In this document: positions 361-15,094 of the stretch, piece after piece | Layout of the letters: the number at the start of each line of letters is the position of its first letter | Position numbering within the stretch: the first letter of the stretch is position 1 | Assembly: GCA_009841105.1 (NCBI GenBank) | Contig: VXMM01000025.1 | Span: forward strand, 1 to 61,226 | DNA: 61,226 bases | Direction of reading: 5' to 3' | Source of the DNA: Acidimicrobiia bacterium | GTDB lineage: Bacteria > Actinomycetota > Acidimicrobiia > Spongiisociales > Spongiisociaceae | Made by a program: the position numbers and the translations under genes | The notes under the pieces: model-generated | Told to the model about the DNA's origin: nothing | Database searches by the model: none | What the model saw: only the letters and a program-made list of their open reading frames with translations

Positions 361-780
361 CTACGGGCGTACGGCGAATGCTCGACGGCGCCCGGGGCCG
401 TAACGGTAAATCCGGAAGTCGGCGTCCAAGGCAAGGGCGTCGGTGATACCCAGGCGCTCCATCAGCGCCCAACTCGCGCGGTCCGTCAGGGAGAACGCCT
501 GATCGGGGAAGCCCGCCAACGCGCCGACCGCCGCCTCGAGGTCCTCGTCGGTAGTGCACTCGACTCGGGCGACACCGGCCGCTATCGAGGAGACGAGGCG
601 ATTGGCGGCGTGATGGTCTACTCGCGCGTTCACCAGGTTCCACAGTTCGGCGAGCACGAGGTCGGTGGTCACCAGCGTCCCCGCGTTGTCAGCGAGCAGG
701 GAACGGGCAACCTGGCTATGGGCGTCACCGTCGGCAGCGGCGGCGTACCAGATGCTGGTGTCCACGAACACCGGAACCAC
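361..780 (-). CDS. vapC: VapC-type PIN-domain ribonuclease toxin
   Basis: A 139-residue PIN-domain protein, the usual VapC length. The acidic metal-binding positions are visible: Asp7 in VDTSIW, Glu45 in LVLAELWNL, Asp100 in SLTDRASW, and Asp119/Asp121 in ALDADF. VapC toxins are Mg-dependent RNases that cut tRNA or rRNA and are held in check by the partner antitoxin. The GTG start lies 3 bases after the stop of the upstream antitoxin gene, so the two are one operon. No frameshift or lost acidic residue is seen, so the toxin looks intact. Confidence 0.9.
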   Translation of the reverse strand: MVPVFVDTSIWYAAAADGDAHSQVARSLLADNAGTLVTTDLVLAELWNLVNARVDHHAANRLVSSIAAGVARVECTTDEDLEAAVGALAGFPDQAFSLTDRASWALMERLGITDALALDADFRIYRYGPGRRRAFAVRP

Positions 781-783
781 CGG

Positions 784-1032
784 TCAGATACCTTTGGCCT
801 CGAACTGGCGGTCGATCGCCTCGCTGATCATCGCCTGCTTACCATCGGCGATCCTCGATCCGCCGCCGTCGAACAGGCCGAAGATGACGGACGGGTCGGT
901 GGCGGGAGCGTCCGTGCCCAGGTCGCGCGCCACGAGACGCCGGATGTACTCGGACAGGGAGACTCCCTGGCGAGCCGCCTTGCGCTTGGCTTCGGCGTGG
1001 TGGTGGTCTGGGAGCACAATCATGGTTCTCAT
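784..1032 (-). CDS. vapB: VapB-type ribbon-helix-helix antitoxin
   Basis: An 82-residue protein. Its N-terminus has a short beta strand (MRTMIVLPD) followed by helices with the phrase GVSLSEYIRRLVARDL, typical of ribbon-helix-helix antitoxins. The C-terminal half, ending in ISEAIDRQFEAKGI, would wrap the toxin. It precedes vapC by 3 bases. Antitoxins of this type bind their own promoter, and the inverted repeat just upstream (1059-1073) fits that. Overall 1:1 gene order antitoxin-toxin is the standard vapBC arrangement. Confidence 0.8.
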   Translation of the reverse strand: MRTMIVLPDHHHAEAKRKAARQGVSLSEYIRRLVARDLGTDAPATDPSVIFGLFDGGGSRIADGKQAMISEAIDRQFEAKGI

Positions 1033-1044
1033 ACCTCACATTCA

Positions 1045-1073
1045 AGCATAATCGGCATGGCATTAGTTATGCC
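1045..1073 (-). promoter_or_regulatory. vapBC promoter with inverted-repeat operator
   Basis: On the minus strand a TATGCT -10 box (1050-1045) lies 12 bases before the vapB ATG. Upstream of it, at 1059-1073, is a perfect 5-bp inverted repeat, GGCAT-N5-ATGCC, which covers the expected -35 position. This is a plausible autoregulatory operator for the RHH antitoxin; the assignment is inferred from position. Confidence 0.45.
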
Positions 1074-1417
1074 CTTAGGTTCCGGCAGCGGTCGCCTTGT
1101 TCCATTCGTCGACCGCGTAATGCTGGACGAAGAAGTGGGCTCTAGGGGCATTGTGGTTGCCGGACCTTCAGGCTTGACGAGCTTGCCGCGAAGGCCGGCA
1201 ACCCCCAACGGCGATCCGATCCACCAACAACTTCCGTTGGTGACAACAGGGTCTGGATACCGACGGCCTCCAGTACGTCGGCTGTCAGTGGCAGACCCTG
1301 CCTGTAGCCCTTCCGAAAGGCTGCGTCGGCTGTCCACACACCTGAGTGCGATGTAGCCGTGTACTTGGCGTTTGCGATTTAGTTTCCCCGGAATGAGGCC
1401 GGACTGCTTCCGCAGGC
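1074..1417. other. intergenic stretch without a convincing gene
   Basis: No reading frame here has both a plausible start and family resemblance. A minus-strand stretch near 1142-1339 reads somewhat protein-like at its start (AAFRKGYRQGLPLTADVLEA) but loses that character after about 40 codons. It may be a decayed gene; I cannot name it. Confidence 0.3.
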
Positions 1418-1423
1418 TATGGT
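1418..1423 (+). promoter_or_regulatory. -10 box for a leaderless start
   Basis: TATGGT, six bases before the ATG at 1430. This places transcription start at or beside the start codon and favours ATG 1430 over the in-frame GTG at 1424. Confidence 0.4.
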
Positions 1424-1429
1424 GTGGTC

Positions 1430-2035
1430 ATGCCTTATCCGGAGCGCCTTTTGAGTCTGGACGAGCGGGTTGAGACCGAGTTCCGTCCCCACTGGAAGCT
1501 GCTGGTCTGGCCGGTTCTCATCCTGGTGGTGGCGATCGTCGTCGCTGTTGTGTTGGTGATCAACATCGATGGGTTGTTCGGATGGGTTCTGCCCTTGGTG
1601 GTGGTCCTGGCCGGCCTCCTCATATCGGTCAAGCGCTGGTATCGGTGGCTGTTCACCAAGTTCATCATCACCAACGAGCGGCTTATCGTCCGCAGGGGAT
1701 TGATCGCCCGGAACAGTAAGGAGATCCCCCTAGAGCGCATCGACAACATCTCGTTCTCCCAGACTGTGGGTGAGCGGATCTTCCGGTCCGGTGACCTGTT
1801 GCTCGAATCGGCGGGAGAAGCCGGCCAGAGCCGCTATTCCGACATCCCGCGCCCGGAGGAGACGCAGGCGCTGGTCTACCGGATGAGGGAGGCGCGTATC
1901 AGGGATCTCGAAGGGACCCGCCATCGCTCGTCATCGCGAGCCGACGAACTTGCCAAGCTGGCAAGGCTCCGCGAGCAGGGAGTGCTGACAGACGCGGAGT
2001 TCGCAGCCGAGAAGGGGAAACTGCTCGGGGGGTGA
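1430..2035 (+). CDS. PH-domain membrane protein with C-terminal SHOCT motif
   Basis: About 201 residues. Two hydrophobic segments near residues 23-45 and 50-68 are followed by a bacterial PH-like domain (phrase FIITNERLIVRRGLIARNSK, then IPLERIDNISFSQ), as in YdbT/bPH2 proteins. The end, ELAKLARLREQGVLTDAEF, is a SHOCT motif, a short helical tail found in oligomerising membrane proteins. The role in the cell is not known; such proteins are envelope-associated. The ATG at 1430 was chosen because a -10 box sits six bases before it. It is a single-gene unit; the next gene starts about 200 bases on. Confidence 0.8.
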   Translation: MPYPERLLSLDERVETEFRPHWKLLVWPVLILVVAIVVAVVLVINIDGLFGWVLPLVVVLAGLLISVKRWYRWLFTKFIITNERLIVRRGLIARNSKEIPLERIDNISFSQTVGERIFRSGDLLLESAGEAGQSRYSDIPRPEETQALVYRMREARIRDLEGTRHRSSSRADELAKLARLREQGVLTDAEFAAEKGKLLGG

Positions 2036-2246
2036 TGCACCGGGGTTCGCCTCGCGGCCATTTTCGCCGGCGACATTCGCAGCCCTGCCTCTCGTATCGC
2101 AGCCACAGGTACCCAGGCACCAGACGGATCTTTCATCGCATAGCGCCCCTGGTCGTCCTGGGCGTAAACACTCAACTGCTCCGGTGCTATTTTTCGTGCC
2201 TGTATACGGACTGGAGGAATGCCGCCGGAGGGTGATAAGCGAGACC

Positions 2247-2729
2247 ATGGAACGCGACACGGAGATACTGCCCGCCCTGGGGTACTTGGCGGCCGGCATG
2301 ACGGCAATGTTGGCGAGGCTATCCGGGGAGGCGCTCGCTCCATTCAACATCAGTCCCGTGGAGACCGCCATCCTCATGTACTGCTCGCGGAACCAGGCGA
2401 ACACGACCCAGAAGTTGGTGGACGCAATACATCTGGACCCCTCCTCCGTGAGCCGCCACATAGCAAAGCTTGTGGCGAAGGGCCTGATCCGGCGAACCCG
2501 CCCATTTGACGACCGGCGCGTCGTGCGTTTGGAACTGACGGATGAGGGATGGGCCTTCATGCCCCGGCTCATCGAGTCCCACCAAGACCTCGACTCCCTC
2601 GTCAACGTCGGGATTGGCGAGGAGGAGAAGAGGGTCTTTCTGGATGTCACGAGGAAGATCCACGAGAACCTGCAGGCTGGAATACGAACACAGGAAAGCC
2701 ACCGCGGGAGAGGTCCAGCGGGGAGCTGA
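2247..2729 (+). CDS. MarR-family transcriptional regulator
   Basis: About 160 residues with the MarR winged-helix plan: an N-terminal dimerisation helix, then LVDAIHLDPSSVSRHIAKLV as the recognition helix-turn-helix, followed by the wing with RRTRPFDDRRVVRLELTDEG (the D-x-R wing motif). C-terminal helices complete the dimer. MarR proteins repress nearby or own genes and release DNA on binding small ligands. No partner gene lies next to it. The start is uncertain: GTG 2232 is in frame, and neither candidate has well-spaced ribosome binding; the ATG gives the usual length. Confidence 0.85.
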   Translation: MERDTEILPALGYLAAGMTAMLARLSGEALAPFNISPVETAILMYCSRNQANTTQKLVDAIHLDPSSVSRHIAKLVAKGLIRRTRPFDDRRVVRLELTDEGWAFMPRLIESHQDLDSLVNVGIGEEEKRVFLDVTRKIHENLQAGIRTQESHRGRGPAGS

Positions 2730-2841
2730 AGGGTAGAGGTCGAGGCGCTCCCTGCGGCGGTGACGACCGGCTGCCCAGGTGTCCGCTGCTCTCTTGAGCT
2801 GTTGGATTCATGACATCGTCCGGCGCTTCCCCCGGGCCGAT

Positions 2842-2967
2842 TAAGCGACGGCTGCGGAGTTCGGTTTGTCGGACTAGGCCTTCTACGACTGGCACCGCCA
2901 GGCCACTGTTGACCGCGGGCTGGAGCCGGGTCTCACTCCTGGCGAGAAGGACGAGATTCAGCGTTGA
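2842..2967 (+). pseudogene. IS3-type transposase OrfA remnant
   Basis: One frame reads ATAAEFGLSD, a stop, AFYDWHRQATVDRGLEPGLT, then PGEKDEIQR and a second stop at 2965-2967. The phrase W-x-RQ-x-x-VD-x-G-x-x-PGLT-x-x-E-x-x-EI is characteristic of OrfA of IS3-family elements, where a leucine-rich coiled coil normally follows. Two in-frame stops and the missing continuation mark it as a fossil. No terminal repeats or OrfB were found. Confidence 0.45.
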
Positions 2968-3078
2968 TTGGCAAGCCGAACCATGACACGCCTATACCAT
3001 CACCACAAGAGATGTTTTGCAAATGCGAAACTATTCAGCTTCCATGGTGTGAGTAGAGGCCGTAGGGGAGGGTTTGAG

Positions 3079-3633
3079 ATGACGGAGGAAACCAGCGGCG
3101 GTATCGGCCCTTGGTGGCTGGTGGCGTTCAGCGGACTGTCGAGTCTGGTGCTCGGTGTCATGCTGTTGGTCTGGCCGGGCCGCACGTTGCTGGTCATCAC
3201 CGTCGTGGTGGGTATCCAGCTGCTGTTCTTCGGGATCGGGAGGCTGGGCGGCGCGCTGTTCGGGTCCGAGCGGTCGCAACGGGGCATGCTGCTGCTCTCG
3301 GGCTTGGGCGGTATCGTGGTCGGGTTGCTGGCGTTGTTCCGTCCCAACCGCACCATCGATTTCCTGGTGATCCTCTTGGGTCTGTACTGGGTGCTCAGCG
3401 GATTGGGTGATGTCGTGTCGGGGTTCGTGGACCGGAACCATCCCGGCCGGGTCTCAGCGGTCCTCTTCGGGATACTGACGGCGGCTGCAGGCCTTGTCGT
3501 GCTTTTCTGGTCGGGTCCCACCGAGCTGGTCCTAGCGGTAGTGGCCGGTATCAACCTCGTCGCCGGTGGGCTAACCCAGGTCGCGATGGGCTTCCGCCTA
3601 CGCAAGGGCAGCGCCGAAGTGGCACCCTCGTAG
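3079..3633 (+). CDS. HdeD/DUF308-family membrane protein
   Basis: 184 residues, almost wholly hydrophobic, with six predicted membrane segments arranged as three pairs. Each pair ends in a short polar turn such as LVWPGRTLLV or LFRPNRTIDF, the internal repeat typical of HdeD-like (DUF308) proteins. E. coli HdeD is linked to acid resistance, but in actinobacteria the role is unproven. The ATG at 3079 has a strong GGGGAGGG sequence about seven bases upstream, which decides against longer in-frame starts. It stands alone between the IS3 remnant and the binding lipoprotein. Confidence 0.8.
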   Translation: MTEETSGGIGPWWLVAFSGLSSLVLGVMLLVWPGRTLLVITVVVGIQLLFFGIGRLGGALFGSERSQRGMLLLSGLGGIVVGLLALFRPNRTIDFLVILLGLYWVLSGLGDVVSGFVDRNHPGRVSAVLFGILTAAAGLVVLFWSGPTELVLAVVAGINLVAGGLTQVAMGFRLRKGSAEVAPS

Positions 3634-3749
3634 ACCGTACCCACCGGGGATCGACACCAGCAGCCGGCGAAAGGTGTTGGCGGTACCGTCCACAGTTGCC
3701 GCCTTACGGGATCCGGCTGGGATCTAACCCGCGTGAGGGAGGAGTGCCC

Positions 3750-5057
3750 ATGCGCGACATGTACTCGAGACGCGGGTCTTACCCGACCTCGGCCTGTACC
3801 GCAATCGCCGCAGTGTTGGCGGCAGCGGCTCTCCTCCTGGCCTGCGCCGAAGATCCGACCCCGGGAACCGCAATCGGCGACGGCTCACTGGGCACGGTGG
3901 AGATAGAGGCCGGAGCGGCGATCCAGATCCGCTCGGTGAACAACATCTCCGGTGATGTAGCCCGTCTCGGAGTGACCAAGCAGCGCGGCGTGGAACTTGC
4001 CCTCGCGGACTACGGTCCCGTGCACGGGTTCGCAGTGAGCATCGGTATCGGCATGAGCGACGGATGCTCGGCCGACGGAGGACGCCGAGCAGCGGAGTCT
4101 GTCGCCTCCGATCCGCAGGTGATCGGCGTGATCGGCACGTCTTGCTCCAGCGCAGCCACCACGGCCGCTCCCATCCTGGCCGGGGCGGGCATGGTGATGA
4201 TCTCCCCCTCGAATACATCACCGGCGCTCACATCGGATCTGGCGGGCACCGTTGGTGAGCACCACCACCCCGGCTACTACCGGACCTCCCACAACGACCT
4301 CTACCAGGGCCAGGCCGTGGCTCGCTTCCTGTACGAAGAACTCGAGGTGACCACCGCCGCCACGCTCCATGCCCGGGACCCCTACACGCAGGGTCTGGCA
4401 GAGGCGTTCGCCGCCGCTTTCGAGAATCTGGGCGGCACGGTTACCGGCGTAGTCGACTTCGATCGGGAGGAAACCGATCTCGTTCCCGTGCTGACCGAAG
4501 CCGCCTCGGGTGAGCCGCAAGCCCTGTTTCTCCCGCTCACCGGGACGCGGGGCCGGCGGGTGGTGGAGCAGGTAGCCGGAGTGGCCGGACTGGAGGACAC
4601 GGTGCTCCTGGCGGCCGACGCCCTCTTCGAGGACGATTTCATGCGCCTGGCCGGAACCGTTGGAATGTACTTCTCGGGTCCCGACCTGCGCTACGGAGCC
4701 AACGAGAACCAGAGCACCGGCCGCAGCGCGACCGAGGTGCTCGCAACCTACGAGGAGACCTACGGCGAGTCACCCGTGTCGCCGTTCTGGGCGCACGCCT
4801 ACGACGCTACGACCCTGTTGCTCGAAGCTATAGCCGCCTCGTCCTACGTAACCGAGGACGGTGTACTGGTGATCGACCGGGCGGGGATGAGGGCCGCCCT
4901 GAACGCCATCGACCGGTACCACGGGCTGATCGGGACCATTTCCTGCGATCAGTACGGCGACTGTGGCACCCAGAAGATCACCGTGATCCACCACATCGAC
5001 GCCAACGACATTGAGGCATCGAAACGCAACGTCGTGTTCGAGTTCAGCGGCTCCTGA
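3750..5057 (+). CDS. branched-chain amino acid-type ABC substrate-binding lipoprotein
   Basis: 435 residues. A signal peptide ends in the lipobox LLAC (Cys32), so the protein would be anchored outside the membrane. The mature part resembles type I periplasmic binding proteins of the LivK/ANF-receptor family: VIGVIGTSCSSAATTAAPI in the first lobe, MISPSNTSPALT binding-site loop, and a DATTLLLEAI helix late in the second lobe. Such proteins capture amino acids or small acids for an ABC importer. No permease or ATPase genes are adjacent, so it is an orphan. The start has a GAGGGAGGAG ribosome site five bases upstream. Confidence 0.85.
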   Translation: MRDMYSRRGSYPTSACTAIAAVLAAAALLLACAEDPTPGTAIGDGSLGTVEIEAGAAIQIRSVNNISGDVARLGVTKQRGVELALADYGPVHGFAVSIGIGMSDGCSADGGRRAAESVASDPQVIGVIGTSCSSAATTAAPILAGAGMVMISPSNTSPALTSDLAGTVGEHHHPGYYRTSHNDLYQGQAVARFLYEELEVTTAATLHARDPYTQGLAEAFAAAFENLGGTVTGVVDFDREETDLVPVLTEAASGEPQALFLPLTGTRGRRVVEQVAGVAGLEDTVLLAADALFEDDFMRLAGTVGMYFSGPDLRYGANENQSTGRSATEVLATYEETYGESPVSPFWAHAYDATTLLLEAIAASSYVTEDGVLVIDRAGMRAALNAIDRYHGLIGTISCDQYGDCGTQKITVIHHIDANDIEASKRNVVFEFSGS

Positions 5058-5140
5058 GCTAGCCGAGTTCCACCACCCGCCTCGCCCGCGGAACAAAGAC
5101 CGGGGTACTGCTCGCGCTTGAACGTAGCCTTGTCGAAGGC

Positions 5141-7516
5141 TTACCGCTCCTGCTGTTCTCGCGTCTCTCCTTTCGGCATGCGGTAGCCGACGCGGAGTTG
5201 GGTGAAGATGTAGGTGGGGTCGTCGGCGTCGTCGCCGAGCTTGCGGCGCAGGCTGCTGATCGCGGTGCGCATGGGACGAAGGTCGGTGTCGATGTCGGGA
5301 TCAAGCCGCCAGACCCGTCTGAGCAGGTGCTCGTAGGTGAGCACCCGCCCGGCGTGGGACGCGAGCTCGGCCAGGGTCCGGTACTCGATGGCGGTAAGCG
5401 GCACCGGCCGTCCGGCCAGGCTCGCCCTCCGCTCGGCGTAGTCGATGGTCAGGTCTCCCAGGACATAGGGCGCTGACGGCTCGGGTGTCTCCCGCCGGCG
5501 CAGGGCCGCCCTGATGCGGGCCGCCAGCTCGACCGGCGAGAAGGGCTTGATCAGGTAGTCGGCGGCTCCCTCGTCCAGGGCCCGGGCCACGAGCTGCTCC
5601 TGGCCGTAGGCCGACAAGAAGATCACCGGCACATCCCTCGTCATGGCGATGTCCTTCATCAGCTCCATCCCGTCGGCTCCCGGCAGCACCAGGTCCAACA
5701 GGACCAGGTGGGGCCTGTCCTTCTCGACCAGGCGAAGCGCCTCCTCGGGGTCGGTGGTCACGATCGGTGTGTAGTCCGACTTCACGAGGGCGTCCCGGAC
5801 GTGCCGGAGGGTTCGGGGGTCGTCGTCCACCGCCAGCACCCGTACCTGCTCCGCCGTCCGCCGCCGTGGGGAGCGCGCCGGGGATGCAACGGGCCGGGCT
5901 GGAGAGACGTATCCGGCCTGTTCAACAGTGGGTATCGTGAAGGTGAACCGCGCCCCCAGTCCCGGCCCGTCGCTTTCGACCCAGATGCGGCCCCCATGGG
6001 CCTCCACGATCCCCTCGCAGACGGCTAGGCCCAGGCCGGTGCCTCGTCCCGGCTCCTCACCGTCTATCCGGGAGAACATGCGGAACAGGTGGGGCAGGCT
6101 CTCCGCCGGGATGCCCCGGCCTCGGTCGGAGACCGACACCGCCACATGGACATCCTCGACGGCCGTGCTCACTCGGATGGGAGACGACTCCGGAGAGTTG
6201 CGGGCCGCGTTGGATAACAGGTTGTCCAGCACCTGGACCATGCGTGCCCGGTCCGCCATCACCCAGGGAAGGTCCTCCGCAAGCTCTATTTCGATGCGGT
6301 GCCTCCCGCCTCCGCTGCGGAAGGCGTTCCTGGCCTCACCTATCAGTACCGCAACGTCCGTCGGCCCGGGGGAGACCGCCAGGGCGCCGGTCTCGATGCG
6401 GGCCACGTCCAGCAGGTCGCTGATCAGCAGGTGCATCCGGTCGACCTGGGAGTCGATGATCCGGTGGAACTGCTGCATCTCGGCGGGGTTCAGCGGGGCG
6501 GGCGCTCCCAGAAGGGTGGCGACGGAGCCCTTGACCGAGGTGAGTGGCGCACGCAACTCGTGGCTCACCATGGCCAGGAACTCGGCCCGTAGCCGCTCCT
6601 GCTCCTCGAGGGGCGTCATGTCCTGGAGGACCACCACCCAGGACTCCACCCGGCCCTCCTCCGAGCGGATGGGGGTGGCGTTGAGCAACGCCCGCATGTT
6701 GCGGCCGTCGGGCACCCGCAGGACGATCTCCTCGGCCCGCACCGTCTCCCCCGCGCTCAGGGCCTGGGCCAGGGGCAGCTCCTCCAGGGAGATCTCGCTG
6801 CCGTCGGCGCGGCGGACGGTTATGACCTCCAAGAGGTGCTCGAGCGGCTGGTCGGGGTATCGCAGGCCGTCCACGATCCTCAGCATCTCCCGGTTGACGG
6901 AGACCAGCGTCCCTGTTCCGGCGTCTAAGACCACGACGCCCACGGGAGTGGTGTCGATGAGCGCCTCCAGGTCGGCCCTGGCCCGCAGCTCGTCCCGGTG
7001 TCGTCGGGCGTTGGCGATCACCAGCGCCGCCTGCGCGCCGAACATGACCAGGGTCTCCTCGTCTTCTCGGCTGAACTCCCCGCCCGCCTGTCTCTCCGCG
7101 ACGAAGATGTTGCCTACGCGGTTTCCCATGTAGACGACCGGCGCCGCCAGAAACGGCAACAAGGATCCCACTTCCACGGGCGATTGGAGGTTGGGAAGGC
7201 CCTGGGACCTGATGTGGCCCAGGAGGTCCGGCAGTCTCAGGGGTCCCTCGGTCCTGCTGAGCAGTTCGAAGAACCGCATCCCGTCCGCCAGGGACCACAT
7301 CCGCTGGGCCTCCTCGGCGGTCAGCCCCGACGACAGGAAGTCCTCTATCTCGCCGGAGTCGTCCACCAGGACGAAGGCCCCGTAGCTGGCGCCGGTCAGC
7401 GACCGGGCGCTGTCCAGGACCCCTTGCAGCACCGCGTCCAAGTCCAGGCCCTCGTTGATGCGCAAGCTGGCCTCGCTCAATCTACGGAGGGCCTGCATCT
7501 CGCCGTCTCGTTCCAT
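5141..7516 (-). CDS. single-chain sensor kinase, receiver and OmpR-type DNA-binding regulator
   Basis: About 791 residues with a complete signalling path in one chain. Order: GAF (about 15-172), PAS (about 182-305), HisKA with phospho-acceptor His320 in MVSHELRAPLTS, HATPase with N-box DNLLSNAARN and glycine boxes DRGRGI and GRGTGLGL, receiver with phospho-acceptor Asp609 and conserved Lys658 in LIKPF, then an OmpR/PhoB winged helix (about 685-785, LTAIEYRTLAELASHAGRVL). No membrane segment is seen, so sensing is cytosolic. Usually these modules are split between a kinase and a regulator. A GTG at 7519 is also possible as start. It is divergent from the small-protein cassette and probably controls it and itself. 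Confidence 0.9.
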   Translation of the reverse strand: MERDGEMQALRRLSEASLRINEGLDLDAVLQGVLDSARSLTGASYGAFVLVDDSGEIEDFLSSGLTAEEAQRMWSLADGMRFFELLSRTEGPLRLPDLLGHIRSQGLPNLQSPVEVGSLLPFLAAPVVYMGNRVGNIFVAERQAGGEFSREDEETLVMFGAQAALVIANARRHRDELRARADLEALIDTTPVGVVVLDAGTGTLVSVNREMLRIVDGLRYPDQPLEHLLEVITVRRADGSEISLEELPLAQALSAGETVRAEEIVLRVPDGRNMRALLNATPIRSEEGRVESWVVVLQDMTPLEEQERLRAEFLAMVSHELRAPLTSVKGSVATLLGAPAPLNPAEMQQFHRIIDSQVDRMHLLISDLLDVARIETGALAVSPGPTDVAVLIGEARNAFRSGGGRHRIEIELAEDLPWVMADRARMVQVLDNLLSNAARNSPESSPIRVSTAVEDVHVAVSVSDRGRGIPAESLPHLFRMFSRIDGEEPGRGTGLGLAVCEGIVEAHGGRIWVESDGPGLGARFTFTIPTVEQAGYVSPARPVASPARSPRRRTAEQVRVLAVDDDPRTLRHVRDALVKSDYTPIVTTDPEEALRLVEKDRPHLVLLDLVLPGADGMELMKDIAMTRDVPVIFLSAYGQEQLVARALDEGAADYLIKPFSPVELAARIRAALRRRETPEPSAPYVLGDLTIDYAERRASLAGRPVPLTAIEYRTLAELASHAGRVLTYEHLLRRVWRLDPDIDTDLRPMRTAISSLRRKLGDDADDPTYIFTQLRVGYRMPKGETREQQER

Positions 7517-7599
7517 CACCGCACCTCTGCTGGCACTCGACTGCGGAAGGGTTCCGCTCGGACGCTACTGGGCCATTGTAGCGGCCTCAAAAGCGAATC

Positions 7600-7649
7600 T
7601 CATATTGATTTCATATTGATTCCATATATTCTCACGATGATCTCATAGT
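7600..7649 (+). promoter_or_regulatory. tandem 11-bp direct-repeat operator and promoter
   Basis: Four units in exact 11-bp phase: TCATATTGATT (7600), TCATATTGATT (7611), CCATATATTCT (7622), CACGATGATCT (7633). They are followed at once by CATAGT (7644-7649), a possible -10 box for the rightward cassette. Direct repeats with an 11-bp period that replace the -35 box are the hallmark of PhoB/OmpR-type activators. The region lies between the kinase-regulator gene and the cassette and is strikingly AT-rich. Binding by that regulator is inferred. Confidence 0.6.
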
Positions 7650-7681
7650 AGCTCGGGTAAAGTAGTTGCTTATGTACCCCT

Positions 7682-7724
7682 GGGGAACCGAGGGCGGCGG
7701 CGAGCGACCGCCCCTTGGTTCCCC
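7682..7724 (+). promoter_or_regulatory. long GC-rich stem-loop in the cassette leader
   Basis: The arms GGGGAACCGAGGGCGG (7682-7697) and CCGCCCCTTGGTTCCCC (7708-7724) pair over 13 bp with one G-T, then after one bulged base 3 more, closing a 10-base loop. The hairpin lies between the presumed transcription start and the ribosome site of the first cassette gene. No T-run follows, so it is more likely a leader structure than a terminator. Confidence 0.5.
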
Positions 7725-7741
7725 CTAACGAGGGAGACAAC

Positions 7742-7897
7742 ATGAAGTGGATACTGCTCATCCTCATGCTGGCCGGCACCGGCTGGCTCATCCTCGAAGA
7801 ACAGTATTGGTGGGCCGGAGGCGCTGCCGTGATCACGATCCTGGTCGGCTGGCGACTCATCCGCCACTCCCTCAGCAGAGCCATCCGCCCCAAGTAA
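7742..7897 (+). CDS. 51-residue single-pass membrane miniprotein
   Basis: Starts MKWILLILMLAGTG and continues through a tryptophan-rich middle (EEQYWWAGG) into a second hydrophobic stretch and a basic end, RHSLSRAIRPK. It therefore has one or two membrane spans with a positively charged C-terminus expected inside. The ATG has the ribosome site CGAGGGAG about seven bases upstream. Its TAA overlaps the next ATG by one base (TAATG). I do not recognise the family. It is the first gene of a six-gene coupled cassette. Confidence 0.6.
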   Translation: MKWILLILMLAGTGWLILEEQYWWAGGAAVITILVGWRLIRHSLSRAIRPK

Positions 7898-8061
7898 TGA
7901 ACAAAGCGGCCAAGCTAATCGCCCTCTACCTAGCAGCCATCATCCTCGCCTACCTCGGGCTAGGAGTCGGCCTACAACGATCCATCGTCCTCGCCTACAC
8001 CATATGGGCCATAACCGCGCTGCTGGTTGTCTACGGCACGTATCGGATTATCAGACGATGA
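7897..8061 (+). CDS. 54-residue membrane miniprotein
   Basis: MNKAAKLIALYLAAIILAYL opens the first of two hydrophobic helices; the second, around ISIVLAYTIWAITALLVV-like sequence, ends in YGTYRIIRR with a basic tail. The start shares one base with the stop before it and its TGA overlaps the next ATG in the sequence ATGA. Such overlaps imply translational coupling. No family is recognised. Together with its neighbours it looks like a small membrane complex rather than random open frames, because the codon phase and spacing are strictly kept through the cassette. Confidence 0.55.
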   Translation: MNKAAKLIALYLAAIILAYLGLGVGLQRSIVLAYTIWAITALLVVYGTYRIIRR

Positions 8062-8240
8062 ACCTTGTCCAAGCTGCCGAGAAGCAGGCGCTCGAACGAG
8101 TCCGGTTCAACCTCACCGACTGCATCGACAACATCGGGATGCTGATCCAACGTTACGGTCCGGATGCCAGCCTGGTAAGAGCTCGTGGTCTCTTGATTGA
8201 TGTCCGGGATCGGGTCATCAGATTCATCGACGAACAATGA
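8058..8240 (+). CDS. 60-residue soluble helical protein
   Basis: MNLVQAAEKQALERVRFNLT begins a charged, mostly helical protein with one Cys in LTDCIDNIGMLIQRYG and the end LIDVRDRVIRFIDEQ. No membrane segment or known motif is present. It overlaps its upstream neighbour by ATGA and its downstream neighbour by ATGA (ATG at 8237). A helical hairpin or coiled-coil adaptor is possible from the sequence, but no function can be given. Confidence 0.55.
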   Translation: MNLVQAAEKQALERVRFNLTDCIDNIGMLIQRYGPDASLVRARGLLIDVRDRVIRFIDEQ

Positions 8241-8392
8241 CCACCAACCCGAGGTTTGTGGGACGCCTCCTTTCTGTGGCTTTCGAGAGCATGGAGTGCC
8301 GGCCCCGGACGCTCATCCGATGGATGATCGGCGTCGCCTGCGGTCCGGTCGCGGTGGGTTGCTGGGTGCTGCTCGCAGGGCTGGGGGACTGA
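8237..8392 (+). CDS. 51-residue protein with C-terminal membrane helix
   Basis: ATG 8237 overlaps the previous stop (ATGA) and TGA 8390-8392 overlaps the next ATG. The N-terminal half is basic (MTTNPRFVGRLLSVAFESME, then CRPRTLIRW) and the C-terminal half is a single hydrophobic helix, MIGVACGPVAVGCWVLLAGL, ending in GD. The arrangement suggests a tail-anchored miniprotein. It is shorter than most gene finders report and would be easily missed. No family is recognised. Confidence 0.5.
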   Translation: MTTNPRFVGRLLSVAFESMECRPRTLIRWMIGVACGPVAVGCWVLLAGLGD

Positions 8393-8931
8393 TGGCGAAC
8401 AAGTTCGCGTTAGAGATCCCCACGCTGGAGATCGAAGGGAAGCGGCTCATCGTCCCCTCGATGCTGCGTCGCACCCTGGCGCACCTGGCCGACTTCCTCG
8501 CCGCTGCGGCGGTGGCGGGGGTCTTCTTCTGGGTCCTGCCGATCGAGTCGCCGATCCAGGACGCGGGCGGCGATGGGTTCTGGGGGACCGTGGTCCCCTT
8601 CCTCCTGTACTACCTGATCATCGCCCTGTACCGGCCGGTCGCTCACGCGGCGGCGGGCACGACGATCGGCAAGGCCATGCTCCAGATGCGCCTGGTCGGG
8701 TACGGCGCTGTTTGTAGCAAGGACCGCTTGGGCCGGAAGCCTTCGTTCTCGCTGGCGCTGGCGCGGTGGGCCGTGTTCTACATCATGCCGCTCGGTCCGC
8801 TGATCAGCCTGTTCGTGGCTCTCGGGTCCCGCGACAACCGCGGCCTCCACGACATGCTGGCGGGCACTGCGGTGGTGTCCACGCTGGCCCTGCCGTCCGA
8901 AAAGCCGGCCGAGCCAGAGGAAGAGCGATGA
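8392..8931 (+). CDS. RDD-family membrane protein
   Basis: 179 residues. The family pattern is visible: an early RR-x-LAHLADFLAAAAVAG segment (Arg and Asp of the RDD name at the start of the first span), a second span around VVPFLLYYLIIALYRPV, the motif GTTIGKAMLQMRLV, and a last span ending near FVALGSRDNRGLHDMLAGT. RDD proteins are three-span membrane proteins of mostly unknown function, some acting as cation antiporters. It is the longest gene of the cassette, and both ends overlap neighbours in ATGA or TGATG. The cluster places an RDD protein with four miniproteins. Confidence 0.85.
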   Translation: MANKFALEIPTLEIEGKRLIVPSMLRRTLAHLADFLAAAAVAGVFFWVLPIESPIQDAGGDGFWGTVVPFLLYYLIIALYRPVAHAAAGTTIGKAMLQMRLVGYGAVCSKDRLGRKPSFSLALARWAVFYIMPLGPLISLFVALGSRDNRGLHDMLAGTAVVSTLALPSEKPAEPEEER

Positions 8932-9170
8932 CCGAACCACAACGCAACGCGCAGGGCTTCGTCGTCAACAGCTTCGAGGACCTCGGCACGGTTCTCGGAA
9001 TCATGATCCACGGCGTGGACAGCCGCTTCAGTCCGGTGGATGGCATCCGCGACTGGCTCGAGCACAGGGTCGACACCATGGACAGGCGGCTTGAACCGGG
9101 TGGAGCAGAAGATGGACGCACGGCGACGATTGGGCTTCCCCGCCTCGGACGGACCGAGCCGGCGGGGTGA
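8928..9170 (+). CDS. short helical protein with a probable frameshift
   Basis: 80 residues as read, beginning MTEPQRNAQGFVVNSFEDLG. It overlaps the RDD gene by ATGA. Up to MDRRL (9078-9092) it is helical with heptad-like spacing (LEHRVDTMDRRL). After that the frame becomes proline- and glycine-rich, whereas dropping one base near 9090-9093 continues the heptads as NRVEQKMDARRRLGF. I infer a one-base insertion or sequence error that has destroyed the coiled-coil end; that alternative frame runs on to 9318. Such short coiled coils often mediate oligomerisation. Confidence 0.5.
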   Translation: MTEPQRNAQGFVVNSFEDLGTVLGIMIHGVDSRFSPVDGIRDWLEHRVDTMDRRLEPGGAEDGRTATIGLPRLGRTEPAG

Positions 9171-9541
9171 AACTGGTGGCACGATCAGCATCCCATGCCG
9201 GAAACAGGTCGGAAGCAGCCGACCACCGAAAGAAGCGCCCCGTGGTCGCCCCCTTCGGTTGGAGGTCGGCCTCCTGCCCATCAACGGCTTCTCAGCCGAA
9301 CCGAGCGGGACCCACTAGAGCCGCCTTCCGGCTTCGACAAGGACGGAAGACGGCCCTGGCGTTGATACACAGCCCAAGCGCTACCACAGTCTTCAACCGT
9401 TCACGACATGAGACTCGACAGTGTGCGGTCGAAGGCGTGTGGAGGGTGGGGCGGCGATGCTGACAGCAAGCCTGAACGCCGTCTGGTTCGGCCGCCCCGC
9501 TTCTCGCACCAGCCTGCGATGAAGTAGACCACCGACCAAAC
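9171..9541. other. intergenic stretch, only a weak inverted repeat
   Basis: Apart from the out-of-frame extension of the previous gene up to 9318, I see no gene. GGGGCGGC (9448-9455) and GCCGCCCC (9491-9498) are perfect inverted repeats separated by 35 bases and could form a weak terminator-like stem; there is no T-run. Confidence 0.3.
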
Positions 9542-9727
9542 GTGACCCTCGATCCCAAACTCGTCAGATTCGTCAGACAGCGCAGGCAGCGCCCCTCATG
9601 GGCACAAGTGGCCAAAGCTGGGAACAGAGCAGGCTACCGAACCGTCCGAGGCAAACGATGGGAAGGTGCGAATCTGCGACAACAGATGCTCGCAACATTC
9701 CCTGATGAACCTTGGTGCCGCCCTTGA
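9542..9727 (+). CDS. 61-residue small basic protein
   Basis: From a GTG at 9542 the protein is strongly basic and contains PSWAQVAKAGNRAGYRTVRG followed by KRWEGANLRQQM. That pattern (helix, glycine-rich turn, R-G-x-x-W, short helix) resembles the small helix-turn-helix segments at the ends of serine recombinases and in phage regulators, where it helps contact DNA. It could thus be a free-standing fragment of such a protein or a small regulator. Its stop overlaps the next start in TTGA, suggesting that both are real genes. Confidence 0.4.
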   Translation: MTLDPKLVRFVRQRRQRPSWAQVAKAGNRAGYRTVRGKRWEGANLRQQMLATFPDEPWCRP

Positions 9728-9939
9728 ATTCCCGTCACTCTCCAGGCATCAGAGACATCGCAGAAGCCCGACTCCGCCTACTCGAAGCAACAGAAGAACT
9801 CGAACCCCTACTCAGCGACAGCAACATGAATCCCTACAACCTGAATCTGCTCCGGGTTAACAGGCTCATTCTCGAAGCTCGCCGCCACCTACAAAACTAC
9901 CTAGACCGGACAGGGCCAATCCCACCGCAGCCCGCCTGA
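9724..9939 (+). CDS. 71-residue helical protein
   Basis: TTG 9724 overlaps the previous TGA. The protein is leucine- and charge-rich (DIAEARLRLLEATEELEPLL, then NLLRVNRLILEARRHLQNYL) and probably forms two helices. No motif is recognised. An alternative start is GTG 9712. Its pairing with the preceding basic protein suggests a small two-gene unit, perhaps also of toxin-antitoxin or mobile-element origin, but the sequence does not prove that. Confidence 0.4.
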   Translation: MNSRHSPGIRDIAEARLRLLEATEELEPLLSDSNMNPYNLNLLRVNRLILEARRHLQNYLDRTGPIPPQPA

Positions 9940-9954
9940 TCCCCGGATCACACA

Positions 9955-10045
9955 CCGGCGCGGAGTTGGCCAGGTTCTCCAGGTCGGCCTAGGCCTTTCT
10001 GAGGGACTGCATCTCCGATTCGCGGGCATCGCCCCGGTCATCTCT
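9955..10045 (-). pseudogene. possible N-terminal remnant of a second sensor kinase
   Basis: Leftward, one frame reads DDRGDARESEMQSLRKA, a stop, then ADLENLANSAP. The opening resembles the start of the single-chain regulator at 7516 (MERDGEMQALRRLSEASL), and it occupies the same place and orientation relative to a copy of the 11-bp repeat tract. There is no in-frame start and the frame is broken. This may be the fossil of a paralogue; the amino acid match is short. Confidence 0.3.
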
Positions 10046-10097
10046 ACACCTCCATCAGGACACTACGGGGTCTTTTGTGACGGTTTCGAACAGAAAC

Positions 10098-10161
10098 TCA
10101 CATTGATTTAACCGCTCGAACCCCAATTCTCACGGCTATCTTACACACGGTTACCTATAGT
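10098..10161 (+). promoter_or_regulatory. second copy of the 11-bp repeat operator, with -10 box
   Basis: In 11-bp phase: TCACATTGATT (10098), TAACCGCTCGA, ACCCCAATTCT (10120), CACGGCTATCT (10131), TACACACGGTT (10142). Units 1, 3 and 4 match the corresponding units at 7600, 7622 and 7633; unit 2 has diverged. TATAGT at 10156-10161 is a good -10 box, followed by AGCGAGG, as CATAGTAGCTCGG follows the first tract. It would drive the P450 gene rightward. Recognition by the regulator at 5141-7516 is inferred. Confidence 0.5.
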
Positions 10162-10457
10162 AGCGAGGGAAGCAGGGTCCATCGACAGGGGCGGTTCTGG
10201 CTTGACAGCTTTCGATGACACGGGCCGGAAAACGGAAGTGTTCCGATCCAGTCAGCGAAATGATCTCAACGGGGAGGCGCTTACAAGACCCGCGGCGGAG
10301 TCTGGATCCAGTGGACCCTGACCCGGAGGGTCCGGCGTGATCGCATCGCCCCTACACCGAGCCTCCCAGGGTGTGCTGCAGGGAACCGCCGCCCCTTCCG
10401 GGGACGGAGGTTCTTGGCGCTCGCAGTCAAGGGCATGTTCGAGAGTAGGACAAGGCT
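10162..10457 (+). other. long untranslated leader of the P450 gene, with a hairpin
   Basis: Almost 300 bases separate the -10 box from the P450 start and hold no gene I can support. A perfect 7-bp stem, GGACCCT (10313-10319) and AGGGTCC (10327-10333), closes a 7-base loop; no T-run follows. It could be a leader structure or the remains of a deleted gene. Confidence 0.35.
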
Positions 10458-11885
10458 TTGCTACAACGCAAGAGGCAAACGGTAACGACCAGCTCTGACT
10501 CGTTTCTGGTCGATCCTCCCAGGCCCGCCGTACGGCGAACGGAGTTGCCTCCGGGGCCATCCGCGTTGCCCCTTGTCGGCCAAGCGTTCCGCCTCAAGAA
10601 CGACTTCGTCGGCCTGCTGCGAGAGGCCGCCACCTACGGCGACGTCAGCACCGTGTCCGTGAAGCCCATCATGTGCTGCCTCGTGAATAACCCCGAGCTC
10701 ACCCGGCAGGTCCTGGTGACCAATCGCCTGAAGACCGGGCGAGGAGTGACCGCCTTTGAGACCATACGCTGGATGATGGGCGACGGCCTCACGGCATCCA
10801 CCGGGACGTTTCACCTGAAGCAGCGGCGGCTGATACGGCCCCGGTTCCATCGCAGGTACATCGAACACTACGCGGGGGCCATGACCGAGATCTCTGCCCG
10901 AAAGTCTCGGCAGTGGCGAGACGGGGCCCAGGTGGACATGGAGCAGGAGATGCGGGACTTGACGCTCGAGATAGTGGCGAAGGCCCTGTTCGATATCGAG
11001 ACGCACGACGTCGTCCGGCGCGTGGGCCGGTCGTTCGCGGAGAGTGAGGGGTACATATACGCCCGTCTGACCCAGCCGTTGTTTCTCAGGCGGCTGCTCC
11101 ACAAGCTTCCCGTGCCCTCCACCCGGCGCTTCAAGGAGGCGCGCGCCTACCTGGACGAGTTGATATACGACCTGATCAGCGAACGCCGGCGATCGGGCGC
11201 CGAAGGCGACGACCTGCTCTGCATGCTGCTGCAGGTGAGGTACGAGGACGCCGAGGGCGACGAAGGCAGCGGGATGAGCGACGAGCTGGTACGGGACGAG
11301 GCGGTCTCCCTGTACATCGCCGGGCACGACACCACGGCGACCACCCTGACGTACGCGTTCTTTCTCCTGTCCCAGAACCCCGAGGTGGAGAAGCGGTTCC
11401 ATGCGGAGCTGGACGACGTGCTCGGGGACCGCGACGCCACCCTCGAAGACCTGCCCAACCTGCATCTCACCGACCAGATAGTCACGGAGACGCTGAGGCT
11501 CTATCCGCCGTTCTGGCTCCTTGGAAGGATGGTGTTCGAGCCCATCGAATTGGGGGGTCATCGCATCCCGGCCGGCGTCTCAGTGGTGACCTCGCCGCTA
11601 ATCACGCACCGCGATCCGCGCTGGTTCGACGACCCGCTGGAGTTTCGCCCTGAGCGCTGGACGGACGAGTTCCGCAGCCAACTGCCGCAGTTCGCATACT
11701 TCCCCTTCGGGGGAGGCGAGCATCAGTGCATCGGCGAGGGCTTCGCGTGGATGGAGGCGAAGATTGCGCTGGCCACCTTGCACCGGCGCTGGCGCGCTAC
11801 GACGAGCAGCAAGGCGGAGATCATGCCTCGCACAACCCTCAAGGTGAAAGGCGGCCTGCCGATGAGACTCGAACGTCGCCGCTAG
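10458..11885 (+). CDS. cytochrome P450 monooxygenase
   Basis: 475 residues, full length for a soluble bacterial P450. Landmarks: PPGPSALPLVG proline hinge (31-41), I-helix oxygen-binding motif AGHDTT (288-293), the ExxR pair in ETLRLYP (344-350), and the heme loop FGGGEHQCIG (417-426) with axial Cys424. The C-helix has HLKQRRLIRPRF. The overall look is of the CYP102/CYP4/CYP135-138-like group that hydroxylates fatty acids or terpenoids; the substrate is not known. Redox partners are not adjacent. TTG 10458 is the only reasonable start, preceded by AGGACAAGG. It probably forms a unit with the MpaB-type oxygenase downstream. Confidence 0.93.
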   Translation: MLQRKRQTVTTSSDSFLVDPPRPAVRRTELPPGPSALPLVGQAFRLKNDFVGLLREAATYGDVSTVSVKPIMCCLVNNPELTRQVLVTNRLKTGRGVTAFETIRWMMGDGLTASTGTFHLKQRRLIRPRFHRRYIEHYAGAMTEISARKSRQWRDGAQVDMEQEMRDLTLEIVAKALFDIETHDVVRRVGRSFAESEGYIYARLTQPLFLRRLLHKLPVPSTRRFKEARAYLDELIYDLISERRRSGAEGDDLLCMLLQVRYEDAEGDEGSGMSDELVRDEAVSLYIAGHDTTATTLTYAFFLLSQNPEVEKRFHAELDDVLGDRDATLEDLPNLHLTDQIVTETLRLYPPFWLLGRMVFEPIELGGHRIPAGVSVVTSPLITHRDPRWFDDPLEFRPERWTDEFRSQLPQFAYFPFGGGEHQCIGEGFAWMEAKIALATLHRRWRATTSSKAEIMPRTTLKVKGGLPMRLERRR

Positions 11886-11914
11886 AGCACCGCGACCGAC
11901 GGAGGGCTCGGCCT

Positions 11915-11974
11915 GACCGCACGGCGCCAGTCCCGACGGGCGGCCTGCCGATGACCCTGGAGCGCCGAGATTGA
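11915..11974 (+). pseudogene. duplicated P450 C-terminal tail
   Basis: Right after the P450 stop, one frame reads TGGLPMTLERRD and a stop at 11972-11974. It is nearly the same as the P450's own end KGGLPMRLERRR, and the DNA matches over GGCGGCCTGCCGATGA. This looks like the tail of a second P450 gene lost by deletion, or a tandem duplication of the end of the first. Confidence 0.5.
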
Positions 11975-13221
11975 GCGGACGCCATGTGCCAACCCACCAC
12001 GGAGAGGCGAGATCACCGCCCGGAGCGACTGAAGAGAAACTCCCGGCGATCATCCCCACCGACTACAGGGCGGGGTACGAGAAGGCGTGTGAACTGGCGC
12101 CGGAAACGGCCGCCAACTACGTCGCACACACGCTGATCGGAGATCCTCTGGCCGACGCCATGATGGAGGACCTGTCCGGCGTCTCGAGGCAGGAACAGGC
12201 CCTGCTGTTTCAGGGGGCGTTGCTCGAGCAGGACTGGGACAGCCTGACCGACGCTCCTTCTTCGGCGAAGGAATTCTTCGAGGACACGGAGAAAGTGCCG
12301 GACTGGGTCGATTTTGACTCATTTCTCCCGGGAATCCGCATGTTCCATCGGAACTCTCATCTCATCCTGGGCGCGTTTGTCGGGGGCACGCTGGTGGAAG
12401 GGTTCGCCACCAACATCAGCAAGGCTTTCTTCATCAGCGGGAGGGTGCGCGACCAGGGAGTACGGAGGCTGAGGCAGAACAACCGGCACATGATCGAGAT
12501 CTTCATGCCCGACGGCTTGACCAGGGACGGAGACGGTTGGAAGTTATCGGTACGGATCCGGCTTGTCCACGCGCAGCTGAGACGGTTGCTCGGGAACTCC
12601 GACGAATGGGACCACGAGGCGTGGGGTCTGCCCATAAGCTCGGCACATCTCGGTTACGCCATTACGTCGTTCTCGGCCAGGCTCTTGGACCACATGAAGC
12701 ACCTGGGGGCGAAGTACTCCGACGAGGAGCGCGACAGCTTCATGTCCATTTGGCGGTATACCGGACATGTCATGGGCATTCCTACCTCCATACTCTTCCG
12801 GGACGAGGAGGACGCCCATCACCTGCACCGAATCGGCTCTGTGTGCGAGCCTCCGCCCTCCCCGGAGTCAATCGTCATGGCGCATGCGCTGGTCAACTCT
12901 GCCCCGCTGGTGATCGGCGTTTCCGACCCGCCGGAACGCCGCAAGCTGGCGGGCTACGTGTTCAAAGTCTCCCGGGCCCTGATCGGCAACACGCTGGCCG
13001 ACCAGTTGAAGTATCCTCCCGGCCCGAGCTATGGGACCCTGTTCATCTTCCGGATGCAGGGGAGGTACAAGCGCCTTCTGGCCAGCCTGGGCCGAAAGAG
13101 TAAGAATGACCCGAACCTATTCAGGTTTGTGTCACTCTTGGAGGCGTCCGTTCTGGAAGAGACGGGGATCAGCTACAGGCTGCCCGATCACATGTACTCG
13201 GAGGAGTCTTCCCAGTGGTGA
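11971..13221 (+). CDS. MpaB/DUF2236-type heme oxygenase
   Basis: 416 residues in the oxygenase MpaB family (DUF2236), which includes latex-clearing protein Lcp and fungal MpaB. These use heme b to cleave or oxidise isoprenoid carbon chains. Visible family features are DWVDFDSF, the helix FHRNSHLILGAFVGGTLVEG, WRYTGHVMGIP with a candidate heme His, and a second His-rich stretch EEDAHHLHRIG. TTG 11971 overlaps the end of the duplicated P450 tail; GTG 11986 is an alternative. It follows the P450 closely, so the pair may act in one oxidation pathway, possibly of a terpenoid. The substrate is inferred only from the family. Confidence 0.75.
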   Translation: MSGRHVPTHHGEARSPPGATEEKLPAIIPTDYRAGYEKACELAPETAANYVAHTLIGDPLADAMMEDLSGVSRQEQALLFQGALLEQDWDSLTDAPSSAKEFFEDTEKVPDWVDFDSFLPGIRMFHRNSHLILGAFVGGTLVEGFATNISKAFFISGRVRDQGVRRLRQNNRHMIEIFMPDGLTRDGDGWKLSVRIRLVHAQLRRLLGNSDEWDHEAWGLPISSAHLGYAITSFSARLLDHMKHLGAKYSDEERDSFMSIWRYTGHVMGIPTSILFRDEEDAHHLHRIGSVCEPPPSPESIVMAHALVNSAPLVIGVSDPPERRKLAGYVFKVSRALIGNTLADQLKYPPGPSYGTLFIFRMQGRYKRLLASLGRKSKNDPNLFRFVSLLEASVLEETGISYRLPDHMYSEESSQW

Positions 13222-13387
13222 AGCGGGCTGGGCCTGATCGGGTTGGCAACCCGTTGCGGCACACTACACGTTGACGTAGCGACGATCGGAGCCAAGCCCC
13301 CTATAGCGAGTCCGATGCTCCCGCCCAGCGGGACTTACGCATTCAACTTGACAAGGGCACTCGCAAGCGACCGGAGACGAGTTTCCA

Positions 13388-15094
13388 TCAGGCGCGGAGG
13401 GTTGCCGTTCTTGCGGTGTCCACGCTGAAGGTGGCCGGGTCCACCGCGACGCCGTAGTCCCGCTCGGCTGCCTCGACGGATACGAAGCCGTTGCGGACAT
13501 CCTTTGCCACCAGGGCCGGATCGCGCTCGAACGGGTTGCCCCAGCCGCCGCCCCCTCCGGTGTTGTTGGCGAGAACCTGACCGGCTTCGAGGAAGTTGTA
13601 GCTGCCTCCCTTGCGCTCCTCGTTCTCCGTTCCCGGGTCGATCACGATGTGGTTGGGTTCGGCTTCCTTCCCGCCGTTGATGCCCCATGGAGGGCTCAGG
13701 GTCTTGTAGACGATCGAGATGGCCGTGCTGGGGGCGAGAAACCGGTAGACCCTGCTGATGCCCACGCCGCCGCGGTGCTTGCCGGGGCCTCCGGTGTCGG
13801 GCCGGTAGCCGTAGTGGTCGATCATCACGGGACCCTTGACCTCCAGCACCTCGACGGGATTGTTGCGGCAGCCCGGCTCGGACAGATGCATGATGCCGTC
13901 CTCACCATCTCCGCCGGCGTGGGCACCGAACCCGACCGCGTCGTTCATGCCCTCCAGCCACGGACCTCCGGTGCGGGGGTCGACTCCGAGAGCCATGACG
14001 GAGCACACGTCACCCCCCGAACAGGCAGGCACGCGGTCGGGCATCCCCTGTGCCAGGGCCTTCAGCATCACCTCGCCGCCCAGCAAGCCGGTCCATAGGG
14101 TGAAGGTGGGCATCGGTGGAACGGCGTGCATCACCGATCCTTCCTTGGTGATCACTCGCAGCGGCCGGAAGTTGCCGGCCGTCACCGGCCACTCGGGAGT
14201 GGTGAGGCCCTTGAAGATCAGGCAGTTGAAGGCCTCGGTCATGCCCCGCGGCAGGTTGATCGGACCGCGAACCCCTTCGTCGCTCCCGGTCCAGTCGACG
14301 ATCATCTCGTCGTCGGTGATGGTGATGGTCACGGCCATCTTGATGGGTCTGTCCAGGTCCACCCCGTCGTTGTCCAGGTAGTCCTCGGCGCTCCACGTGC
14401 CTTTGGGCATGCGCCGCAGGGCTGCCAGCGCTAGGCGCTCGCCGTGGACGTTGATGGCGTCCATGGCGGCGGTGAGGGTCTCGACCCCGAACTTCTCGGC
14501 GATTTCACGGGTTCGTCTAACCCCGGTAACCACAGCCGACACCTCCGCTTGTATGTCCCCGATCGTGTGGTTGGGCAGCCGGCTGTTGAAGCGCACGATG
14601 TTGAATATGTCCTCGTTGATCTCTCCTTCCCGGTACAGCTTGACGACCGGGAAGAAGATCCCCTCCTGGTACATGTCGGTGGAGTCGAGCACGTAGCCCG
14701 GGTCCTTCTGTTTGAGGTCGAGCACGTGGCACCGGCAGGACGCGAAGCCGACCAAGCGCCCGTCGACATGGATAGGAGCGAACACGAGCGTGTCGAGCGT
14801 GTGGGCCGACGACCAGTACGGATAGTTGTTTATGAACACGTCCCCGGGCTTCATCGCATCCGTTCCCAGAAACTCGATCGACCGCTTGATGCCGTAGTCG
14901 TTGCCGCGGGTGAACACGGCGATGCCCGGAGCGTCGGCAGCGATGTCTCCGTTCACATCGTGCAGTCCCACCCCGTAGTCGTGGGTTTCGTAGACGACCG
15001 TGTTGTAGGACGTCCGGCAGAGGTTCCGGGCCATTTCTTCGCAGGCCGAGAGGAGCCCGTGACGGATGATTTCGGTGGTGATGGCGTCAATCAT
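13388..15094 (-). CDS. hyuB: hydantoinase B / 5-oxoprolinase-type subunit
   Basis: 568 residues with the HyuB pattern: DAITTEIIRHGLLSACEEMA at the start, GDVFINNYPYWSSAHTLD, DWTGSD, and a C-terminal glycine-rich stretch NNTGGGGGWGNPFERDP. HyuA and HyuB form an ATP-dependent enzyme that opens hydantoin, oxoproline or related lactam rings, or carboxylates ketones. ATG 15094 lies inside the end of hyuA, so the genes overlap and are translated together; TTG 15100 is possible. Which ring is opened cannot be told from sequence. The nearby amidohydrolase suggests a catabolic unit for cyclic amides or ureides. Confidence 0.9.
   Translation of the reverse strand: MIDAITTEIIRHGLLSACEEMARNLCRTSYNTVVYETHDYGVGLHDVNGDIAADAPGIAVFTRGNDYGIKRSIEFLGTDAMKPGDVFINNYPYWSSAHTLDTLVFAPIHVDGRLVGFASCRCHVLDLKQKDPGYVLDSTDMYQEGIFFPVVKLYREGEINEDIFNIVRFNSRLPNHTIGDIQAEVSAVVTGVRRTREIAEKFGVETLTAAMDAINVHGERLALAALRRMPKGTWSAEDYLDNDGVDLDRPIKMAVTITITDDEMIVDWTGSDEGVRGPINLPRGMTEAFNCLIFKGLTTPEWPVTAGNFRPLRVITKEGSVMHAVPPMPTFTLWTGLLGGEVMLKALAQGMPDRVPACSGGDVCSVMALGVDPRTGGPWLEGMNDAVGFGAHAGGDGEDGIMHLSEPGCRNNPVEVLEVKGPVMIDHYGYRPDTGGPGKHRGGVGISRVYRFLAPSTAISIVYKTLSPPWGINGGKEAEPNHIVIDPGTENEERKGGSYNFLEAGQVLANNTGGGGGWGNPFERDPALVAKDVRNGFVSVEAAERDYGVAVDPATFSVDTARTATLRA

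Follow-up and report, generated by a model that had tools for sequence, protein, structure and literature searches.

Two adjacent units of a fused two-component regulator family and a probable orphan operator upstream of a P450 gene in an Acidimicrobiia bacterium

We analyzed a contig of 61,226 nucleotides from an Acidimicrobiia bacterium (VXMM01000025.1, assembly GCA_009841105.1; this whole stretch is hereafter called the window), in which two adjacent divergent units of one regulator family appear to lie within a species-specific island. The unit around the regulator gene HK1 (unit 1) is intact; in the other (unit 2), the regulator gene (HK2) has decayed, the operator has been kept, and HK1 likely drives the cytochrome P450 and MpaB-type genes, a reading that we consider fairly probable. 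Unit 2 would thus contain an orphan operator whose own fused two-component gene has decayed and which the neighboring regulator has likely taken over. Evidence comes from the homology and architecture of the two operators (hereafter tract 1 and tract 2), a pseudogene with a decayed promoter element, intact equivalents in other genomes, and the island context. The features involved are listed in Table 1.

Table 1. Features of the two units and the surrounding island (window coordinates)
Feature	Position	Strand	Basis or remarks
Species-specific island holding both units	223-13372		Bounded by breaks in same-genus DNA homology
PIN-domain gene	361-780		In the island, next to a small ORF (784-1032)
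HK1, fused regulator (792 aa)	5141-7519	-	GAF-PAS-HisKA-HATPase-REC-winged helix; Pfam
HK1 leftward -10 box	7575-7580	-	TACAAT; 19 bp from half-site 1
Tract 1 operator	7600-7647	+	Half-sites TCATA 7600, TCATA 7611, TCACG 7632, TCATA 7643
Tract 1 rightward -10 box	7658-7663	+	TAAAGT; family register
Two small membrane-protein ORFs	7742-8061	+	Behind tract 1; without Pfam match
RDD-family membrane protein	8392-8931	+	PF06271
HK2 pseudogene	9953-10045	-	N-terminal ~30 codons of a GAF-less PAS-kinase; blastn, alignments
Tract 2 operator	10098-10145	+	Half-sites TCACA 10098, TAACC 10109 (degenerate), TCACG 10130, TTACA 10141
Tract 2 rightward -10 box	10156-10161	+	TATAGT; family register
Cytochrome P450	10458-11885	+	PF00067, 3e-80
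MpaB/rubber-oxygenase-type protein	11971-13221	+	PF09995

HK1 and its regulator family

HK1 carries HisKA, HATPase, receiver, and Trans_reg_C domains within one open frame, which makes it a fused (hybrid) regulator with OmpR/PhoB-type output, and the motifs of both the phospho-acceptor His (VSHELR) and the receiver Asp (LLDLVLP/VLLDLVLP) are intact. Its winged helix matches WalR/VicR, KdpE, and OmpR-family structures, and its recognition helix, at 748, reads RPMRTAISSLRRKL. HK1 is not PhoB (148.5 bits vs a cut-off of 296.2 for the NCBIfam PhoB model), and its Trans_reg_C output is not AraC-type, as the output domain of the Bacteroides hybrid two-component systems (HTCS) is. Rightward of tract 1, the first gene is a small membrane-protein ORF (7742), followed by the RDD-family gene. 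The presumed 5' leader behind tract 1 contains a very stable hairpin at 7682-7724 (GGGGAACCGAGGGCGG...CCGCCCCTTGGTTCCCC; z -3.8), and a weaker one is present in the P450 leader near 10380-10412 (GAACCGCC...GGAGGTTC; z -2.1).

A scan of species genomes yielded 80 loci related to HK1 (46-73% identity), mostly in Chloroflexota and also in Gemmatimonadota, Latescibacterota, and Actinomycetota bins; judging from isolate names, many of these bins look sponge-derived. Family kinases are also present in same-genus genomes of the window organism, and its own genome contains just one other member (51% identity, on contig C59). In a tree of 90 kinases, HK1 forms one clade with full support together with the kinases of three loci, L010 (an Actinomycetes bin), L053, and L061 (a Chloroflexi bin). 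A limited literature search found nothing on this fused regulator family, including no described binding site.

Elsewhere in the family, genes divergent from the kinases often encode fn3, LRR, ankyrin, PKD/cadherin, or Ig repeat proteins (L019, L022, L027, L041, L047, L048, L058, L063, L067, L074, L079, L083, and L089). With downstream genes as a control, fn3 genes were divergent from the kinase in 8 of 74 cases vs 2 of 72 downstream, P450 genes in 4/74 vs 0/72, and LRR genes in 2 vs 2, so that family-wide enrichment of targets among divergent genes is suggestive only. P450 genes are found on the minus strand upstream of, and divergent from, kinases of different family clades (L028, L033, L034, and L044, plus L010). 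In a SAR202 bin (MPND01000038.1), no more than about 8-10 kb separates two family kinase loci (L031 and L074), perhaps another instance of adjacent units.

The two operators and the decayed sensor gene

Tract 1 with its -10 box (7600-7663) and tract 2 with its own (10098-10161) are homologous and align without a gap, each position lying 2498 bp from its counterpart. The 66-mers at 7598 and 10096 are identical at 36 of 66 positions, which is the top match among all window 66-mers on both strands (self excluded) and was reached by none of 5000 dinucleotide shuffles of tract 1 (mean 17.9, sd 3.4). Local alignment of 7500-7700 with 9950-10200 scored above all 2000 shuffles under loose scoring and was matched or beaten by 11 of 2000 under strict scoring. 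The resemblance pointed out in an earlier note on this DNA, made from the letters alone, therefore exceeds what shuffled sequence gives. The 11-bp units named there (7600, 7622, and 7633; 10098, 10120, and 10131) are present and in the same phase, but the true half-sites are those of Table 1; the flanking leftward frames with related residues (EMQALR and EMQSLR) are also real. CATAGT (7644), named in that note as a box of the rightward gene, is half-site 4, and its reading as the -10 of tract 1 was rejected because it has the wrong register within the operator family; the counterpart of TATAGT (10156) is TAAAGT (7658).

Divergent regions of many family loci contain TnACA-like half-sites in two pairs (box A, 0 and 11; box B, 32-33 and 43-44), followed by a -10 hexamer at about 58. 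Tract 2 has this layout as found in the clade (half-sites at 0, 11, 32-33, and 43-44, -10 at 58) apart from a degenerate half-site 2, which is degenerate in the L053 operator as well, although the kinase there is intact. With a 66-bp family weight matrix trained on 49 operators, all from other genomes, the window positions 7598, 10096, and 7566 outranked all else; 7566, the only match scoring higher than the other two, corresponds to tract 1 in a register shifted by 32 bp, and the best site unrelated to the tracts scored -0.7 bits. Under a clade matrix of tract 1, L010, L053, and L061, from which tract 2 was left out, tract 2 scored 35.4 bits (next unrelated window site -1.8; mean -49.7, sd 10.3), and tract 1, left out in turn, scored 35.7 bits, with just four or five sites behind these clade matrices.

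The four intact clade loci have a leftward -10 box (5-6 of 6 matches) at 18-19 bp from half-site 1, namely TACAAT at tract 1, TATAGT in L010, TATAAT in L053, and TATCAT in L061. In 44 other loci, 17 leftward matches of at least 5/6 were detected at 15-18 bp, vs one in shuffled sequence. No leftward -10 candidate was found at the family position beside tract 2, where the alignment reads CACAAA, whereas its rightward TATAGT is the best such box among the five clade loci. By blastn, the adjoining HK2 stub is 72% identical over 96 bp to the beginning of the L053 kinase gene (E 2.9e-4), and it contains a frameshift (a 1-nt deletion after the ATG at 10041-10039), an in-frame stop (TAG at 9991-9989), and a truncation near codon 32, homology stopping at about 9945. 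Its reading ESEMQSLRKA*ADLENLANSAPV aligns with RELESLRKVKADLETLIDTSPV of L053 and EIRELRKAQADLETLIDTSPV of L061, both of which are kinases without a GAF domain. Hence, where intact units have a divergent kinase gene and a -10 box for it, unit 2 has a pseudogene and CACAAA; these lesions, with TATAGT kept, point to decay of the unit on its leftward side but not on its rightward side. As the divergence of the stub does not exceed that of intact relatives, the sensor may have been lost recently; that the operator survives need not reflect selection and is weak evidence for it.

Intact equivalents exist in other genomes. The L010 kinase, of the GAF type like HK1 and 71% identical to it, is divergent from a P450 gene with the operator in between, and this P450 is 71% identical to that of the window over 156 residues, where the L010 contig ends. 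In L061, a GAF-less kinase (73%) is divergent from a gene set including an MpaB homologue (54%). Thus, both genes behind tract 2 are of kinds that adjoin intact clade kinases; the translation of the window P450, matched by Pfam p450, carries the FGGGEHQCIG heme loop. The loss of a second sensor at tract 2, as supposed in the earlier note, is borne out by the stub, the decayed leftward box, and these kinases, and the intact second kinase to be looked for in relatives was found, though the relatives lie outside the genus. In same-genus genomes, no intact second sensor was found, and those genomes lack this P450 (best matches weak) and this RDD gene.

Origin of the units and the regulator of tract 2

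The earlier note took tract 2 for a duplicated control region. A local copy of the HK1-tract 1 unit that later lost its kinase would account for the adjacency of the tracts, their equal order and phase, and a block common to both (GGACnCTAC..GATTT). However, tract 2 with the stub aligns better with L053 (score 38.4) and L061 (32.5) than with tract 1 (23.5), tract 1 has its best match in L010 (36.8), and the lost sensor lacked the GAF domain that the resident one has. Tract 2 is thus nearer to these foreign loci than to tract 1, and local duplication appears unlikely as its origin, to the point that we give it little credence; two independently derived units, or recombination between them, explain the locus better. 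It is also conceivable, if doubtful, that an insertion split an ancestral HK1-operator-P450 unit and brought the second operator and the stub with it, with the same present-day anatomy. L010, in which kinase and P450 are directly divergent and the kinase shares the GAF type and recognition helix of HK1, agrees with such an event, but the stub lies on the P450 side with a full operator of its own, implying that at least two units recombined. An assembly or binning artefact, with the stub created in a chimeric contig, might be suspected because the genome is in 69 contigs, the locus was seen in a single genome, and related paralogues are 70-78% identical. We regard it as very improbable, since frameshift, stop, and lost -10 all fall within the surviving stub, an assembler would rarely merge copies at 75% identity, and hyuBA on the same contig (13388-17126) is 90-93% identical within the genus.

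Same-genus DNA homology ends at 13373-13393 in the five genomes with contigs extending past this point (the contigs of two more end before it), and in one genome (G003) the left flank of the window is directly joined to hyuB. The site beside hyuB is occupied by different DNA in related genomes, and the 13-kb island also carries MarR, DUF308, and solute-binding genes. In the favored reading, the island was horizontally acquired. The nearest relative of the P450 (79-90% identical) was observed in another context in a Chloroflexi bin, G061, at the end of contig C77 and the start of C5 (L175 and L176). There it has no adjoining family kinase, suggesting that the P450 gene moves on its own; its recent transfer between phyla is likely.

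With regard to the regulator of tract 2, HK1 has the helix RPMRTAISSLRRKL in common with just one other kinase among the sequences listed, the P450-linked one of L010. The C59 family member was rejected as a candidate (operator -25 bits, different recognition helix). Exact box-B matches were detected genome-wide only in tracts 1 and 2, of which the absence of others is the informative part because the pattern was built from both tracts; with two mismatches allowed, four further genome sites appeared, equal to the level of a reversed control. The shared helix, the misfit of the C59 member, and the lack of other exact box-B sites make HK1 the best candidate for both promoters. The case for HK1 at both tracts is circumstantial, as it combines these points with equal leave-one-out scores and no other fitting regulator found, and suggests that control of the P450 was probably taken over by HK1 via the near-identical operator. 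Specific contacts may differ between GAF and GAF-less clade members. The alternative that tract 2 is a dead relic, unread by HK1, with P450 and MpaB expressed constitutively or otherwise controlled, is a less probable one that nevertheless deserves consideration: the stub has decayed, half-site 2 is degenerate, and the P450 leader of 280 bp is far longer than that of L010 (about 80 bp). On the other hand, tract 2 fits the clade operator as tract 1 does, and the best rightward -10 of five was kept while the adjoining leftward one decayed.

In the favored reading, with HK1 acting at both tracts, each ancestral unit would have had a two-box operator between a target operon read rightward and a leftward gene coding for kinase and response regulator in one chain, with DNA binding of the OmpR/PhoB type. 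Unit 1 (HK1, tract 1, the small membrane proteins, and RDD) would be intact throughout; in unit 2, all but a frameshifted remnant of a GAF-less kinase gene would have been deleted and the promoter of that gene would have decayed, leaving the operator and promoter of P450/MpaB intact. Phosphorylated HK1 is predicted to bind the direct 11-bp half-sites as a dimer arranged head to tail. With its end about 10 bp short of the -10, box B would stand in for the -35 and activate the rightward gene, and box A, overlapping the -35 position of the leftward promoter, may control the regulator's own gene. HK1 would likely occupy tract 2 too and so drive P450/MpaB.

Significance and comparison with known systems

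The locus may represent regulatory rewiring in progress, in which a target operon keeps its operator while the dedicated regulator decays alongside, with a related regulator and site 2.5 kb off. It would be a real but modest example, apparently in sponge-associated bacteria, and it offers an operator code that can be tested for a family of fused two-component proteins present in many uncultured bacteria; the wider family and its targets may outweigh the locus itself in interest. More speculatively, a mobile regulator-plus-operator module may have spread across Chloroflexota, Gemmatimonadota, Latescibacterota, and Actinomycetota, in largely sponge-associated-looking bins, repeatedly coupled to secreted eukaryote-like repeat proteins and oxygenases and active as an orphan operator after regulator loss, so that related regulators of one genome share a regulon; we hold this only tentatively.

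The closest parallels are L010, L053, and L061 from uncultured Actinomycetota and Chloroflexota genomes, which have the same operator and clade and whose targets include P450 and MpaB types; their kinases are intact, and none has two adjacent operators, unlike the window locus. PhoB at the pho box and OmpR-family regulators use operators of 11-bp direct half-sites, with about 10 bp between the end of the box and the -10. The locus resembles them in half-sites, box-to--10 spacing (about 10 bp), and a winged helix nearest WalR/VicR and KdpE; it differs in having four half-sites in two boxes and a divergent region serving two promoters and, with respect to PhoB, in a regulator that is fused to its kinase and does not reach the NCBIfam PhoB cut-off.

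In Bacteroides HTCS, one protein carries the kinase, the receiver, and the DNA-binding domain; the sensor lies in the membrane, and there are many paralogues, each adjoining its own targets (PMC11253607). The family here likewise consists of single-chain proteins with many paralogues next to targets; it differs from HTCS in its GAF/PAS sensor and OmpR-type winged helix. For copper, cross-regulation has been described between accessory and resident two-component systems, both intact (PMC11195947). The likeness would lie in related regulators reading control units that were gained horizontally; unlike in the copper case, one regulator has been lost here, and the island carries both sites.
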